Shown here piece by piece: positions 34,780-41,458 of a stretch of DNA of 64,000 nt. Location of the stretch: positions 1,550,001-1,614,000 of the forward strand of contig CM007991.1 of assembly GCA_002189035.1 (NCBI GenBank), written 5' to 3'. Under the pieces are notes generated by a model. That model saw only the letters and a program-made list of their open reading frames with translations. It was not told where the DNA came from and did no database searches. The number at the start of each line of letters is the position of its first letter. Position 1 is the first letter of the stretch. The position numbers were made by a program, and so were the translations under genes. The DNA is from Utricularia gibba (taxonomy: Eukaryota > Streptophyta > Magnoliopsida > Lamiales > Lentibulariaceae).

Positions 34780-35943
34780 TTTTCTGTGGCACAGAACACA
34801 AATGCAAAAAAGCCCGATGATCCAAGCGAAGAAAGAAAGCAACGCTGAAAAGCGGTTTGGTGGCACGCACCTTGTCGCCCATTCATCAAATATATTATTA
34901 TTATTATAATTATTATTGTTATTAATTTTACCAGTCCCCCACACATTTTAAAAATCCGCCTTATTACGTGTCGCCCGAAAAGCAATTAAAAATCCAGAAA
35001 CAAAAAGAAAATCAACATATTTTAGTTTATTTTATTTTTAATATCACTCAATCCAAAATTTAAATTTTAAATACAAATGATATAAAATAGGGTTGTCATC
35101 TCCCGGCGTCATCTAAAAAAGTGGGTATTTACTGATTTTATACTACACATTAAAAAAAATGAATATTTAAAATATTTATTTTTTTTCATTTTCTAAATAT
35201 TATATGTGCATGTAAATAATGCAGGAATTGTACTCACATTTTAAAATGCATCTAACTCAGACAATAAATGGCTTTAAAATCCACATTGAATTCCACAATA
35301 ATTAAGGATGCAGCCACCTGCCCATGCTGCACCATACTTCATCAATATTTCAAAATTATGAGGGCTATTTTATCCTTTTAGATTTTCATTGTCCAAAAAA
35401 ATATATTTTTTTTCAAAATTGAAAATTTCTGTTTTTGAGCTCATCAATTATTCATAATAAGATTGGTACTAACTCTTAGGCCTTGTTTGTATGAATGAAA
35501 TATTATTTGATTTTAAATAGCATATTTTTAGTAAATAATGATATTATAGTATCATAGATTACATATCCAACAAATTTTATTATTTTAAAATTTGTGTACA
35601 TTAATTATATAATATAGATATTCTAATAATATTATAGATAATTATAATTATAACAATTTATATCAAATGAAAATTTCTGTAAAATATTTTTGAAATTATT
35701 TACTTTTATCTGAATTAATTTCATTCGTATTTAATATCAATAATCTTAGTTTTTGGTTGCCATGGGATTTCTATATTAAAACAGGGATAATTTTTTAATG
35801 GGAAATAAGTAATTATTTGAATGAACTATTTTTGATTTAAAAATAATAAATCTGACCATGAAAAAAGAAAAATAATCAGTGTGTTTGGAGGACAGATGAA
35901 GGAATTTTTGCGATGGCGATGTGCAGCATTGAAAAACTGTGAG
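34780..35943. other. AT-rich spacer, possible MITE remnant
   Basis: An ATT microsatellite lies at ~34890-34918. Bases 35485-35735 may be a decayed MITE: the left end GGCCTTGTTTGTATGAATGA is typical of Tourist-like elements, and TATGAATGAAAT recurs inverted near 35718-35730, but the right terminus is not clear. No gene found. Confidence 0.4.
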
Positions 35944-36040
35944 AGTGAGTAGCAGGGCAATTCTCCTTTGGCATGCTCCAGCCCCATGCACATGCACAGC
36001 AATTCCTGCATGCCAAAGGAGAATCGCACTCCTACTCATA
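35944..36040 (-). ncRNA. MIR399: MIR399 precursor hairpin (minus-strand copy)
   Basis: Read on the minus strand, bases 36040-36008 and 35976-35944 form a ~33-bp stem with only about three unpaired or wobble positions, closed by a ~31-nt loop. The 3' arm (35973-35953) is a canonical miR399: it begins TGCCAAAGGAGAATTGCC and continues CTG. The 5' arm carries the star strand (ATTCTCCTTTGGCA core). miR399 is made in phosphate starvation and guides cleavage or silencing of PHO2/UBC24 mRNA to raise phosphate uptake. A TATA box lies ~120 bp upstream on the same strand and a P1BS site just beyond it. The plus-strand reading also folds, but its mature sequence would end GAATCGCACTC, less like known miR399. 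A protein frame overlapping this hairpin is not credible. Confidence 0.92.
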
Positions 36041-36160
36041 CTCCCACACCTCCGCCTGCCTACGTCCATGTCCATCTGAATATCATTCCGGCGGCGAAGA
36101 GCTCCGGCGTCTGCGGTCGCCGGCGCTGCACATGGGCAACAGAAGGTGAGAGGAGGCAGG

Positions 36161-36166
36161 TATATA
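36161..36166 (-). promoter_or_regulatory. TATA box of minus-strand MIR399
   Basis: TATATA reads CTTTATATACC on the minus strand, ~120 bp upstream of the hairpin base. This predicts a start near 36130. Inferred from position and sequence. Confidence 0.6.
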
Positions 36167-36183
36167 AAGGGGCACCCGGGGTT

Positions 36184-36191
36184 GGATATGC
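36184..36191. promoter_or_regulatory. P1BS site (GGATATGC), proximal to minus-strand MIR399
   Basis: Matches the palindromic PHR1-binding consensus GNATATNC. It lies ~20 bp upstream of the minus-strand TATA box, the usual position in phosphate-starvation genes. Confidence 0.7.
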
Positions 36192-36260
36192 CAGGGAATG
36201 ACACCAGAGAAGGCATATACTGTGGACTCTTCACCTACCCTTCTTTTCCTGTTGGTAGGA

Positions 36261-36268
36261 GGATATGC
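36261..36268. promoter_or_regulatory. P1BS site (GGATATGC)
   Basis: Second match to GNATATNC, 77 bp from the first, in the shared upstream region of the two MIR399 copies. Confidence 0.65.
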
Positions 36269-36518
36269 TGTGTTTTACACCATGAAACCTCGTTTTTTCG
36301 CTTTCCCTAGCGACTCCTGACATCCGATTCCTCACATGGGATATCCAATTTAACAGAAGATGAACTCTGTTACGATCTGATGAGATGCCTAATTGCTGAC
36401 TGATCATGTGTTTTCTTTTTCATTTTGCTGCGTGATGCGCAGTCGTAGTTCAAGAAGGTTACAGTCGGTTTCTTTGAATTTCCAACGTGCTCGAGTTGCC
36501 TCATCGGCATAAGATTTT

Positions 36519-36526
36519 GGATATGC
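36519..36526. promoter_or_regulatory. P1BS site (GGATATGC), mid-spacer
   Basis: Third match to GNATATNC, near the midpoint between the two hairpins. Two telobox-like AAACCCTAA words follow at 36652 and 36682. Confidence 0.6.
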
Positions 36527-36890
36527 CATGAGTCACCAAAGTGAGGAGGTATATGCTGGGAACTATCCTTGAGGAAGAATCTGCTTTCGAGCTGTAAGAT
36601 TCAGTCTGCATGTAGGCTTTCCATGCATCACAACTTACGTGCACAATCACCAAACCCTAAACCCAAAACATAGAGATTGAAAAACCCTAAATATTGGCTT
36701 GCCATGCATCATTACCTGGCCTTGTTAAAAAATACAGGATTTACAGGTTCACTAGGATAGTGTGTAATGTGTGTATGTATGCCTATGAATGTGTAAGTGG
36801 GATGGGAGCTTCAGATCTGCAGTGGAGTAAGGGAAGAAGTATGTGAAAAATGAGAGTTGATCAATTGAGAGTATGGATATGAGCATATAA

Positions 36891-36898
36891 GAATATGC
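36891..36898. promoter_or_regulatory. P1BS site (GAATATGC), proximal to plus-strand MIR399
   Basis: Fourth match to GNATATNC, ~25 bp upstream of the plus-strand TATA box. Confidence 0.7.
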
Positions 36899-36922
36899 GG
36901 GGAGAAGAAGCAGAAAGCACTC

Positions 36923-36929
36923 TATTTAA
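36923..36929 (+). promoter_or_regulatory. TATA box of plus-strand MIR399
   Basis: TATTTAA within CTCTATTTAAAC. It predicts a start near 36955, about 55 bases before the hairpin base. Confidence 0.55.
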
Positions 36930-37010
36930 ACGCAATGGCAGCCATTTTTCTTTCTGTGGAGCAACACACAAGCATTACATCTGCAGGGAGTTCTGACAAA
37001 GGAGAAGAAG

Positions 37011-37123
37011 GTACGAGTGCATCATGGGGCAAATACTCCATTGGCAGGAGCTGAATTTCAGCTTGCATCAGCCTGGTTCCAGCGACCCTGCCAAAGGAGA
37101 TTTGCCCCACAATGCAGATGTAC
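37011..37123 (+). ncRNA. MIR399: MIR399 precursor hairpin (plus-strand copy)
   Basis: The 5' arm 37011-37048 (GTACGAGTGCATCATGGGGC, then AAATACTCCATTGGCAGG) pairs with the 3' arm 37087-37123 over ~36 bp with a few mismatches and one bulged A. The mature miR399 is on the 3' arm at 37089-37109, beginning TGCCAAAGGAGATTTGCC and ending CCA, like the UUUGCCC-type members of the family. The star strand is near 37026-37046. The variant differs from the minus-strand copy at the centre (GATTTGCC versus GAATTGCC), so the two loci make distinct isoforms. It shares its upstream region with the other copy. Expected target is PHO2/UBC24 mRNA; none is in this window. Confidence 0.92.
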
Positions 37124-37466
37124 TTGCGAACAACGCACGATGGCACCCTCGAGTGGAGTGTTCAACATTCATGTTTTTCTAAGTGCATCTTTGAGGAACA
37201 AGGAGGATAGTGTAAGTCTTGGCATAACTGATCAATCTTTTTCATAACATGGGACAGGGAAAAGGCATACCATGTAGAATGCATAGATGGAAGCCGAAGG
37301 CAGTACCATCACCGACCACTCAGTTGGCCTGGGCTGGAGCAATCAGTAATTTACAAATTTGCTGTCCTGTGTTTTTACAGAAGGTTACAGGCTGTTCTGA
37401 AAGCTGACTTTCAGGTTCGCCGCCATCAATCAGTACATGGAACAAGGAACTGGAATTGGAACACAT
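37124..37466. other. Spacer between MIR399 and RINGv gene
   Basis: Presumably the primary miRNA transcript tail and the 3'UTR of the RINGv gene. Nothing else was recognised. Confidence 0.4.
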
Positions 37467-38299
37467 TCATACAGAGAGCACGTTCATATGGACAAACCAT
37501 GGAAGGACAAATGCAATGGTAAGGCAGAGAGTGAGCAACCAACATAGCAGTTTGTCATTGAAGAATCTTCTTGATGAAGATGATAAATTTGAACCAAGAT
37601 CAGCTGATATCATGATCTCCACAGCTCTGTTTTCTAAGACAACACTCGTCGCAATTTCACCACATATCTCACACGATCTGAAATATCAAGTTGAAGAAAA
37701 TCACTATATCTGAATCCTAAACTCAAGATAGCAAAGAAACAGCGCATAACACCTGTTCAGCCAGTATCCATCAAAACAGAAAAGAAATGCTAACAAATTA
37801 CTGCATAGTGAAAACTTCAGAACCAGTTACCAAGGCCACATTGAATAAAAAGAAAGATCACTCGAATATTACAACAAGATACCAATTGCAATTGTACAGC
37901 ACAACTCAGAAACTATGGAATGTTAACTTCCGTCAATATGCAAAACTTGCTTAATTTACTCTGTTTTTGAACTAGAAAACAAACCACGAGAAAGAATGAA
38001 TACCTGTTTCCCTTTACCCTGAACCAGGACTCAGCACAGTGGGGATGCGCAACTCCGAGTTCTCCTTTACAACCACACCCCAATTCAATCAAATCATTCC
38101 CAATTTTGCCAATCTCCTGCCCACCCAGTTGACAAATTCTACAAATCCTCTGATCCTCACACTCGTTAACTTCAATGTTGCAAGATGGAACTTGTTCATC
38201 TCCCTCACTTGTACCAACGTGCTTCTCCTCCCCAATTTCGGCCGGATTTTCTCCGGCAGGGGCTAGTCCGGGAGCAGCTTCGCCGGGCCTTGGATACAT
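37467..38299 (-). CDS. Membrane-anchored RINGv (MARCH-like) E3 ubiquitin ligase
   Basis: Two exons on the minus strand, 38299-38004 and 37677-37467, giving 507 nt and 168 aa with intact frame. The RINGv (RING-CH) zinc finger fits C4HC3 spacing exactly: C53 and C56 (CRIC), C75 and C77 (CGC), H85, C88 (HPHC), C101 and C104 (CEIC). The conserved AESWFRVKGNRSCEICG spans the splice junction. A single hydrophobic helix (LLCWLLTLCLTIAFVLPWFV) near residues 143-163 anchors the protein, so it is tail-anchored with a cytosolic RING. Members transfer ubiquitin to membrane or secretory-pathway substrates. The N-terminal 50 residues are acidic and unconserved. The start is the first ATG in frame with the domain; an in-frame stop lies shortly upstream. 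Confidence 0.88.
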
Positions 38300-39023: not shown

Positions 39024-41458
39024 ATGGCGTCTCTCAATTTCAACCCTTTCAACGAAAACTGGTTCAGTAGGCCAAATAGAGTGCCCTTTCAGCCTATCAA
39101 TCTCATCCATTCCTTCCTTCAACCCCGCTCTCAAACCCCTAATTTTGCCTCCATTTCCAATCTGTTTTCGAGAAAACCGAAATCTAAGAATGGTAAGGAG
39201 CCTGGTAAGTATTCCAAAATGCTCGATCAGTTCTTCTGGGAGGTGGAGAACTTTCCAGATTACCGGGATTCCCCTGAAGTTGAGAAGATTTTGAATGATC
39301 ACCCATTTATTGAGAAAAAGGAAAACCCGACACAGGAAGAGGTTGAGGAGAACAACCAATGGTGGGACGCGGTATTGGCCGACCCGGTGACCAAGTTCAT
39401 GCTACGGGCTGAGGAAATTGCTGATCAAATTAATGAGCAGGAACTTCAAGAGAACTCCGTTCCCTATAGGAAGGAAGATAAGAAATTATGGCAGGTACTT
39501 GTTTCTTTTCTGTGATCCTTTAGTTGAGAATTGAATTTTGTTGCTTGAGTTTATCGCCCACATTCTCTTTGTATTGTTTGTGAAGGCTATACCAAATGTT
39601 ATTGGATTGGATGGAAGACCAATGCCGAGAAAAGCAATAAAAACTAGAGAGGAGTCAGATAATAAGTTTTGGGATTTTGCTAGGCAGTTCTTTTTCGGGC
39701 TCTGGGGATTCAGACAGAGGCCTTACCCACCTGGCCGACCGATTGATGTCACACAGGCTATCGGTTACAAGAAACTCGAGAAGCGGTATTATGACTGTAA
39801 GATTACATTGCTATCTCACTGATCAGTGTATTTATTGCATAAAGCTGTCTTAGAAATGATCCAGTTTCATTTTTGGCACCGGGTGTTTTTCCAAATTTCA
39901 TTTTATATGTCTTCTAAAGATGAATGTAATATCAATTTTTTGATTTCAGAGTACAGCAATGGGTGGGAAAGTGCATTTGTATCTTTTCTGAAAGCACTCT
40001 ATTTTAAACTGCTGTCTCTTATGTTGCTCCATTTTATCGCAATTTCAGCGCATAACGCTGGAAAAGTGCTTGTTTTTTAACATCTTCTCTTTGAGCAATT
40101 TATGGAAGGCTGTTAGTTTCAGTTTCAAAACAACAGTTCTTTACGCAATCATTACAATTTAACTGGTGAATCCTATATTTTGTTAATGATGTTCAGTTTA
40201 TGGAGTCCGTTTTAGATATCTGAACCTGGAGGCTTGCATTTTTGTGGCCTCTATTCCTTGTCTTGTTGGATTGCTTCATGGATTAGAGACTTCACAATCT
40301 CTTCTCCATCCTAGTTATCATGAGAAGCGGAGGATTTTTCTACAAGGATCGACTGGGTCGAACCAGGGGTCCGATGGAACTGATACAACTCAAAACAGCT
40401 TGGGGTGCCGGGATAATTGACAAGCATACTTTCGTCTGGGGCGAAGATCTGGACGAATGGGCACCTATAGGGATGATTTATGGCATGGAGCGTGCAATCG
40501 CCACGTGGGATGGTTAGTGTTTAGTATTGGAAAACATGTCCTGTTCTCCACTGCTTCTGATGGTTTATGAGCTTTCGTTTTTTGTTCAAGTAAAAGTTCG
40601 TACATGCTTAAGGCTCAGTGCAGAGAAATGAAACTTGCAGTTAGGTTGGGTGCCGCTGCAACAGCTTTTCTTCATAAACTTCAAAAGGGTATCCCACCCT
40701 GGGTTCCTTTAAAGGGTTTTGAGGAGAAAACTTATAAGCAGCTTCAAGACGAGGCATACGAAAGCAAGCGGCGTGATTTAGCCGTGTTGGAGGCAAACAA
40801 CGGCGTTTGGCCTGGCGTTTCCATCCCGAGTCATGCACTGTTTCTCTGGGCGGGCGGCTCGGAGTTAACAACTCTCCTGGAAGAAGGTGATCATATGCCC
40901 AACATGTTCATCCCAAAAGACCTCAGGTTCTACAAATCATATATCCTCATTGCATTGCCCTTTTTGGTACTTCAAAATGTGATACTAGTCTTGTTCTTTT
41001 CTTTATGCAATAGGCTTCAGTTGATCAAGGCAATACCAGGTCTGAGACCATGGGAAGTTCTTAGCGTTGAGCAGGCAATGGATGAGATCACATATGGTGG
41101 AGAATGGTACCGTGAGCCACTCGGCTCGTACTCAACCGGACCGCCATACGTCACCGAGTGGAACAAAGATTTTATGGTCCGCACCTATTTGCAATCTACG
41201 AATTACGTCATCTTCTTCTTCAATTTGACTAACATCACTTATTACATTTGGCAGAGACTGTTTAAAGTCTTCCATGACCTTAGCGTGGAAACATATCAGA
41301 AGCTCGAGAAAACGATTCCGGGGTTCGCCACCGTGATGGAAAAAGTACAGCAAGATAACCTTGATAGGAATGCCCGGAAAAAGGCAAAGAGGGCGGAGAC
41401 CGTGGCAGCGCGTTGGAAACAACTCCCCTCCTCGGCCCAGGAGAGCAAGGAAGAGTAA
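39024..41458 (+). CDS. TIC56: Chloroplast TIC56 (inner-envelope translocon component)
   Basis: Four exons: 39024-39494, 39586-39796, 40315-40512 and 40641-41458, giving 1698 nt and 565 aa with intact frame. The N-terminus (MASLNFNPFNENWFSRPNRV) is Ser/Asn/Arg-rich, as a transit peptide should be. A GYF-like domain lies at about residues 230-285 (GGFFYKDRLGRTRGPMELIQ, FVWGEDLDEWAPIGMIYGME). The C-terminal part has LHKLQKGIPPWVPLKGFEEK, EITYGGEWYREPLGSYSTGP and a hydrophobic stretch (ILIALPFLVLQNVILVLFF). This is the plant TIC56 protein found in the 1-MDa complex with TIC20, TIC100 and TIC214, and implicated in plastid protein import and plastid ribosome assembly. All introns are GT-AG. Confidence 0.95.

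Follow-up and report, generated by a model that had tools for sequence, protein, structure and literature searches.

Organization of the MIR399 locus

The analysed window, a 64,000-nucleotide stretch equivalent to C3:1550001-1614000 of the 100.09-Mb genome, contains two MIR399 hairpins that are located on opposite strands and point away from each other, separated by a gap of 973 bp. The left hairpin (positions 35943 to 36041, minus strand) was recognized by the Rfam covariance model RF00445 with a score of 59.1 bits (E 2.7e-11) and a folding energy of -71.8 kcal/mol (z -9.4), the right hairpin (positions 37015 to 37119, plus strand) with 71.8 bits (E 4.9e-15) and -62.7 kcal/mol (z -7.5). On these strands both exceed the gathering score of 57 bits, the left one by 2 bits, and for either hairpin none of 200 shuffled sequences was as stable. 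In both, the 3' arm of the stably folded precursor carries the family's mature sequence of the type TGCCAAAGGAG..TTGCCC. The results confirm a preceding sequence-only reading, which had proposed two strongly folding MIR399 hairpins in head-to-head arrangement about 1 kb apart at this place. A search with the 19-nt miR399 core gave one exact match per strand; with up to three mismatches allowed, three matches were obtained versus 0.06 expected, which excludes a chance origin.

The mature sequences, assigned on the basis of the core matches and the duplex geometry, represent distinct isoforms, as had also been claimed, with a GAATTGCCCTG form on the left and a GATTTGCCCCA form on the right. The left mature miR399, TGCCAAAGGAGAATTGCCCTG, occupies positions 35953 to 35973 of the minus strand (core at 35955 to 35973) in the 3' arm, and its predicted miR399*, GTGCGATTCTCCTTTGGCATG, lies at 36009 to 36029 of the same strand, where the geometry of the duplex provides a 2-nt 3' overhang. 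The right mature miR399, TGCCAAAGGAGATTTGCCCCA, occupies positions 37089 to 37109 of the plus strand (core at 37089 to 37107), likewise in the 3' arm. In the predicted duplexes, two miRNA bases are unpaired on the left and one on the right, where the star side has one extra base. Grapevine MIR399A and MIR399H, as listed in a corrected table (PMC2831844), have the same mature sequence as the left gene.

Both hairpins are near-palindromic, and their antisense strands likewise fold well. The antisense strand of the right hairpin is even more stable than the sense strand (-67.9 versus -62.7 kcal/mol) and scores above the Rfam cut-off (60.8 bits), and that of the left hairpin, i.e., the plus strand, has -53.4 kcal/mol and 49.5 bits, below the cut-off. 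The would-be mature sequences of the antisense strands deviate from the miR399 family. The strand assignment, minus on the left and plus on the right, is based on the 3' arm carrying the canonical mature sequence, together with the Rfam scores and the places where the TATA-like boxes and P1BS motifs lie.

A self-comparison of positions 35900 to 37700 (E ≤ 1) revealed two matches between different places, one between the two hairpins (71% identity over 76 columns) and the other an 18-bp direct match between 36453 and 37379 (E 0.51). The two units share no lasting similarity outside the hairpins, which gives no support to an origin of the pair by recent inverted duplication, and the 18-bp match is too short to mark a third, hairpin-less unit. 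A palindrome pattern search for short-loop hairpins gave zero matches.

Other MIR399 sequences in the genome

One other MIR399 hairpin was found in the genome, with 44 of 4081 candidates scored. It is located on contig C244, carries the GAGTTGCCCTG form, and reaches 39.7 bits, which is below the Rfam cut-off. A decayed MIR399 sequence, TGCCAAACGAGGATTGCCC, is present at C213:1593710-1593728; its mature part has two changes, there is no clear star arm, and the surrounding segment is related to that of the C244 copy. Near both copies lies a frame that we take to be UreF-like. A search for decoy RNAs of the IPS1/At4 type with one motif and at most two mismatches gave a single, weak match with two mismatches (C375:3157125-3157146); the nearest P1BS is about 1.5 kb away, and no decoy is claimed from it.

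P1BS motifs and TATA-like boxes between the hairpins

The intergenic region (positions 36042 to 37014, 973 bp) contains seven P1BS motifs (GNATATNC), one-third of the 21 present in the window. Dinucleotide shuffles of the region had a mean of 0.24 motifs, and none of 2000 reached seven. When the window was scanned in 10-bp steps, the region had the highest count of all 973-bp stretches, and ten other stretches of the genome contained 26 motifs in 86,500 bases, i.e., 0.30 per kb. The motif and its connection with PHR1 are established, and P1BS is cited as GnATATnC (PMC10319397). It is a palindrome of short length in which six positions are invariant, and a match to it is in itself no proof of PHR1 binding.

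The right hairpin is preceded by a TATA-like box, TATTTAA, at positions 36923 to 36929 of the plus strand, the start of which is 92 bp away. The box that we ascribe to the left gene, TATATA (positions 36161 to 36166, minus strand), begins at a distance of 125 bp from the left hairpin. Its sequence is the same in either direction, and the better agreement with the consensus is found on the plus strand (TATATAA), so that the TATA assignment is firmer for the right gene than for the left. The statement of the sequence-only reading that both TATA boxes are directly visible thus applies to the right gene and less firmly to the left. According to a published definition, the genes of a bidirectional pair are on opposite strands with no more than 1000 bp between their start sites (PMC2648788); here the distance is 757 bp from TATA to TATA, with the transcription starts placed according to the TATA positions, and 973 bp from hairpin to hairpin.

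The P1BS motifs are distributed over the gap as follows. A first pair, GGATATGC (36184) and GCATATAC (36213), spans positions 36184 to 36220; in the minus reading, its two motifs precede the left TATA box by 17 and 46 bp. Two further motifs, GGATATGC (36261) and GGATATCC (36339), are found within positions 36261 to 36346, and a second pair, GGATATGC (36519) and GTATATGC (36549), within positions 36519 to 36556. The seventh motif, GAATATGC (positions 36891 to 36898), lies 24 bp upstream of the right TATA-like box. The flanks of the second pair also resemble those of the first, with a local alignment score of 18 compared to 10.1 ± 2.0 for shuffles that kept the P1BS motifs, 7 of 2000 of which reached 18. 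The two modules, 36184 to 36230 and 36519 to 36565, each have their two motifs 29 to 30 bp apart, corresponding to about three helical turns.

The P1BS cluster lends suggestive support to a shared control region for phosphate starvation, and the left and right MIR399 genes would accordingly be co-regulated. Of the bidirectional phosphate-starvation module that had been proposed for this pair, the enrichment of P1BS motifs speaks for the phosphate-starvation part; the sharing of elements is less clear, as each promoter has its own proximal P1BS. The hairpins could therefore also be two independent neighbours, working MIR399 genes with promoter-proximal motifs of their own and nothing in common beyond their closeness. 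Motifs close upstream of each TATA-like box (36184 and 36213 on the left, 36891 on the right) fit such an arrangement, as does the single C244 copy, where one P1BS, GGATATCC, occupies a similar place 100 bp before the hairpin, followed after 35 bp by a TATA-like stretch identified by eye. However, four more motifs (36261, 36339, 36519, and 36549) are located in the middle of the gap, and the resemblance of the middle pair to the left pair suggests a common array; we consider independence of the two genes rather unlikely.

Improbable is an organization as one main unit, in which transcription would start at the plus-strand TATATAA at 36161 and lead to the right hairpin, with the left hairpin antisense, silent, or read from the plus strand. 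The better consensus of this box on the plus strand and the above-mentioned fold and score of the left hairpin's plus strand are in favor of it, and antisense reads have been reported for barley MIR399 loci (PMC3878733). Against it, a separate TATA-like box is available to the right gene, 92 bp ahead of its hairpin, a plus-strand reading of the left hairpin would yield the non-canonical TGCCAAAGGAGAATCGCACTC from a precursor below the Rfam cut-off, and the two P1BS motifs directly upstream of the left TATA box on the minus strand would be placed downstream of it on the plus strand. An interpretation of the left hairpin as a copy in decay, as might be imagined from its narrow margin over the Rfam cut-off and from the decayed sequence at C213:1593710, is very improbable given a mature sequence identical to grapevine MIR399A/H (PMC2831844), a nearly fully paired duplex, and promoter elements that are in place.

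The PHO2 gene and its predicted miR399 target sites

PHO2/UBC24 was identified 40 kb to the right of the pair, beyond the window, with an open frame at C3:1627359-1628738. Its translation resembles a protein of Forsythia annotated as putative E2 24 (54% identity) and an unnamed E2-domain protein of Genlisea aurea (57% identity). The frame matches three SH3 families of the UBE2O type, and the E2 (ubiquitin-conjugating) domain is found in later exons. A genome search revealed one other, much weaker relative, represented by two pieces on C1 with 41% and 36% identity; apart from the C3 frame, no close match to PHO2/UBC24 was found in the genome.

Two miR399 target sites are predicted at C3:1626973 and C3:1627022 on the plus strand, ahead of the start codon of PHO2 by 0.3 to 0.4 kb, and would be part of the PHO2 transcript. 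The right isoform is perfectly complementary to both sites over 19 nt (penalties of 1 and 2), whereas the left isoform has a central mismatch; the left and the C244 isoforms each have penalties of 3.5 and 3 at the two sites. The next-best site on either strand of the same 8 kb has a penalty of at least 8.5. The exact core matches on the minus strand at C3:1626975 and C3:1627024 correspond to these plus-strand target sites; an interpretation of C3:1626975-1627042 as additional MIR399 hairpins was rejected, as there is neither a MIR399 hairpin among the folds nor an Rfam match and the PHO2 coding region follows downstream. The two sites found here compare with five reported for PHO2 of Medicago (PMC10319397) and four for PHO2 of Salvia (PMC6918228).

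With two MIR399 loci and one PHO2 gene placed at random, the chance of one MIR399 locus lying within 40 kb of PHO2 is approximately 0.0016, a value for which the number of loci is a lower bound in view of the 44 of 4081 candidates scored.

The RING-variant neighbour and linkage in other plants

The right MIR399 gene is adjoined by a gene for a RING-variant (RING-CH) protein in convergent orientation, the first coding exon of which has its open frame at positions 37913 to 38299 of the minus strand (Pfam RINGv, E 3e-8). A membrane-like last exon is open to 37470, about 350 bp from the right hairpin, with exon limits set by eye. The transcripts of the RING-variant gene and the right MIR399 gene may overlap. 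Relatives of the RING-variant protein are mostly from Lamiales, and the closest named relatives of the proteins encoded at the locus belong to this order as well, with some of the listed matches coming from other orders. Farther to the right, the gene at positions 40604 to 41458 has no Pfam match and no match in the genome other than itself; we presume it to be TIC56-like.

PHO2, the RING-variant gene, and the MIR399 pair are all located within C3:1585943-1628738. The arrangement resembles that of Arabidopsis, where a MIR399 cluster, presumably MIR399d/e/f (At2g34202/4/8), lies beside a RING gene, which we take to be At2g34200 of the RING/FYVE/PHD type, on the same arm of chromosome 2 as PHO2 (presumably At2g33770). 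There are presumably three hairpins in Arabidopsis, compared to two here, and the distance from the cluster to PHO2 is about 165 kb compared to 40 kb here. No paper on At2g34200 was found in the open-licence literature.

Within the Lamiales, the picture is mixed: putative RING-variant orthologues and PHO2 matches agreed in location in two of seven cases, according to tables that contain one longest contig per cluster and, in one instance, 120 of 445 entries. In Salvia miltiorrhiza the two matches are on contigs of equal size, and in Erythranthe the agreement is between tags 08G138600 (E. tilingii) and 08G142000 (E. guttata). The contigs differ in Rehmannia, Phlomoides, Sesamum radiatum, Sesamum latifolium, and Salvia splendens; the Rehmannia tags are 149 apart and on separate contigs.

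A relative of the RING-variant gene is present at C304:2739131, with 51% identity over 71 residues. A search for MIR399 in the 9.9 kb around it (C304:2734301-2744200) found none. It adjoins a permease-like exon, for which Xan_ur_permease scores 26.6 bits, just under the Pfam cut-off of 27. In Arabidopsis, At2g34200 is presumably adjoined by a permease gene, At2g34190. The C304 region is perhaps a duplicate of the locus of the pair from which the microRNAs were lost.

Comparison with known MIR399 and microRNA clusters

Grapevine chromosome 10 is reported to carry MIR399 a, d, e, f, and h, with the b, c, and i genes on chromosomes 16, 15, and 2, respectively (PMC10931670). According to the corrected table in PMC2831844, the mature sequences of A and H are of the GAATTGCCCTG form, those of D, E, and F are GATTTG forms, and those of B, C, and I are of the GAGTTGCCCTG form; the same table gives zero reads for each of these except I. 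PMC2831844 is a correction of PMC2822795, whose data were called unreliable, and left the sequences of A to H unchanged and changed that of I. The partition of isoforms in the present genome is similar: GAATTG and GATTTG forms are together on C3, as on the grapevine chromosome, and the GAGTTG form is alone on a separate contig, C244, as it is on separate chromosomes in grapevine. The grapevine chromosome 10 set comprises five copies, compared to two here. The shared partition suggests that the two isoforms of the locus are old rather than the product of a recent duplication, in agreement with the self-comparison.

Clustering of MIR399 genes is well known, and the layout found here is uncommon. 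Barley has two pairs, MIR399b/e-1 and MIR399-3/-4, with the members about 2 kb apart, both described as co-oriented (PMC3878733), in contrast to the divergent pair. Eutrema salsugineum likewise has several MIR399a copies on one chromosome, in this case described as a fourfold tandem duplication (PMC3604812). A count over Arabidopsis, poplar, and rice gave 31 microRNA clusters of less than 1 kb with the members on the same strand (8, 9, and 14) and four with members on opposite strands (PMC2812943); the latter resemble our pair in having two microRNAs on different strands within about 1 kb. Together with the co-oriented barley clusters, these counts agree with the earlier remark that such clusters are usually tandem. 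The orientation of the pair is thus uncommon among microRNAs, not unheard of. Among titles and abstract beginnings of the open-licence literature, neither a divergent MIR399 pair nor a linkage of PHO2 and MIR399 was found.

Proposed function and significance

We consider it probable that the locus represents a genuine divergent, phosphate starvation-induced MIR399 pair that silences PHO2 in a plant of the Lamiales. Under phosphate starvation, MYB factors of the PHR1 type would bind to the P1BS motifs between the hairpins, and transcription would proceed outward from two core promoters, the TATA boxes of which are 757 bp apart. Each transcript would form its hairpin and be processed by a plant Dicer to a 21-nt miR399, and both isoforms would then silence PHO2 via the two sites upstream of the coding region. 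The resulting loss of PHO2 protein would allow for more phosphate transport. Points that count against this reading are the stable antisense folds of both hairpins, the better fit of the left TATA box on the plus strand, the separate proximal P1BS motifs of the two genes, and a smaller number of target sites found than in Medicago and Salvia.

More tentative is the possibility that the pair and PHO2 form an ancient linkage block inherited from the rosid-asterid ancestor, in which the target and its silencing microRNAs have been kept together and the right isoform has been fitted to the linked target; we regard it as conceivable rather than probable. If true, the block would bear on whether the PHO2 leader gave rise to miR399 through inverted duplication, or whether joint regulation or inheritance preserves the linkage.

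miR399 and PHO2 form a central switch of the phosphate balance of plants. The compact divergent pair with its seven clustered P1BS motifs offers a test piece for the question of whether one PHR1-bound region drives two isoforms. The linkage to PHO2 is a more interesting lead than the divergent layout: if it is conserved, the way in which a microRNA family originates near its target could be tested directly through a comparison of leaders with hairpins from different plant orders.
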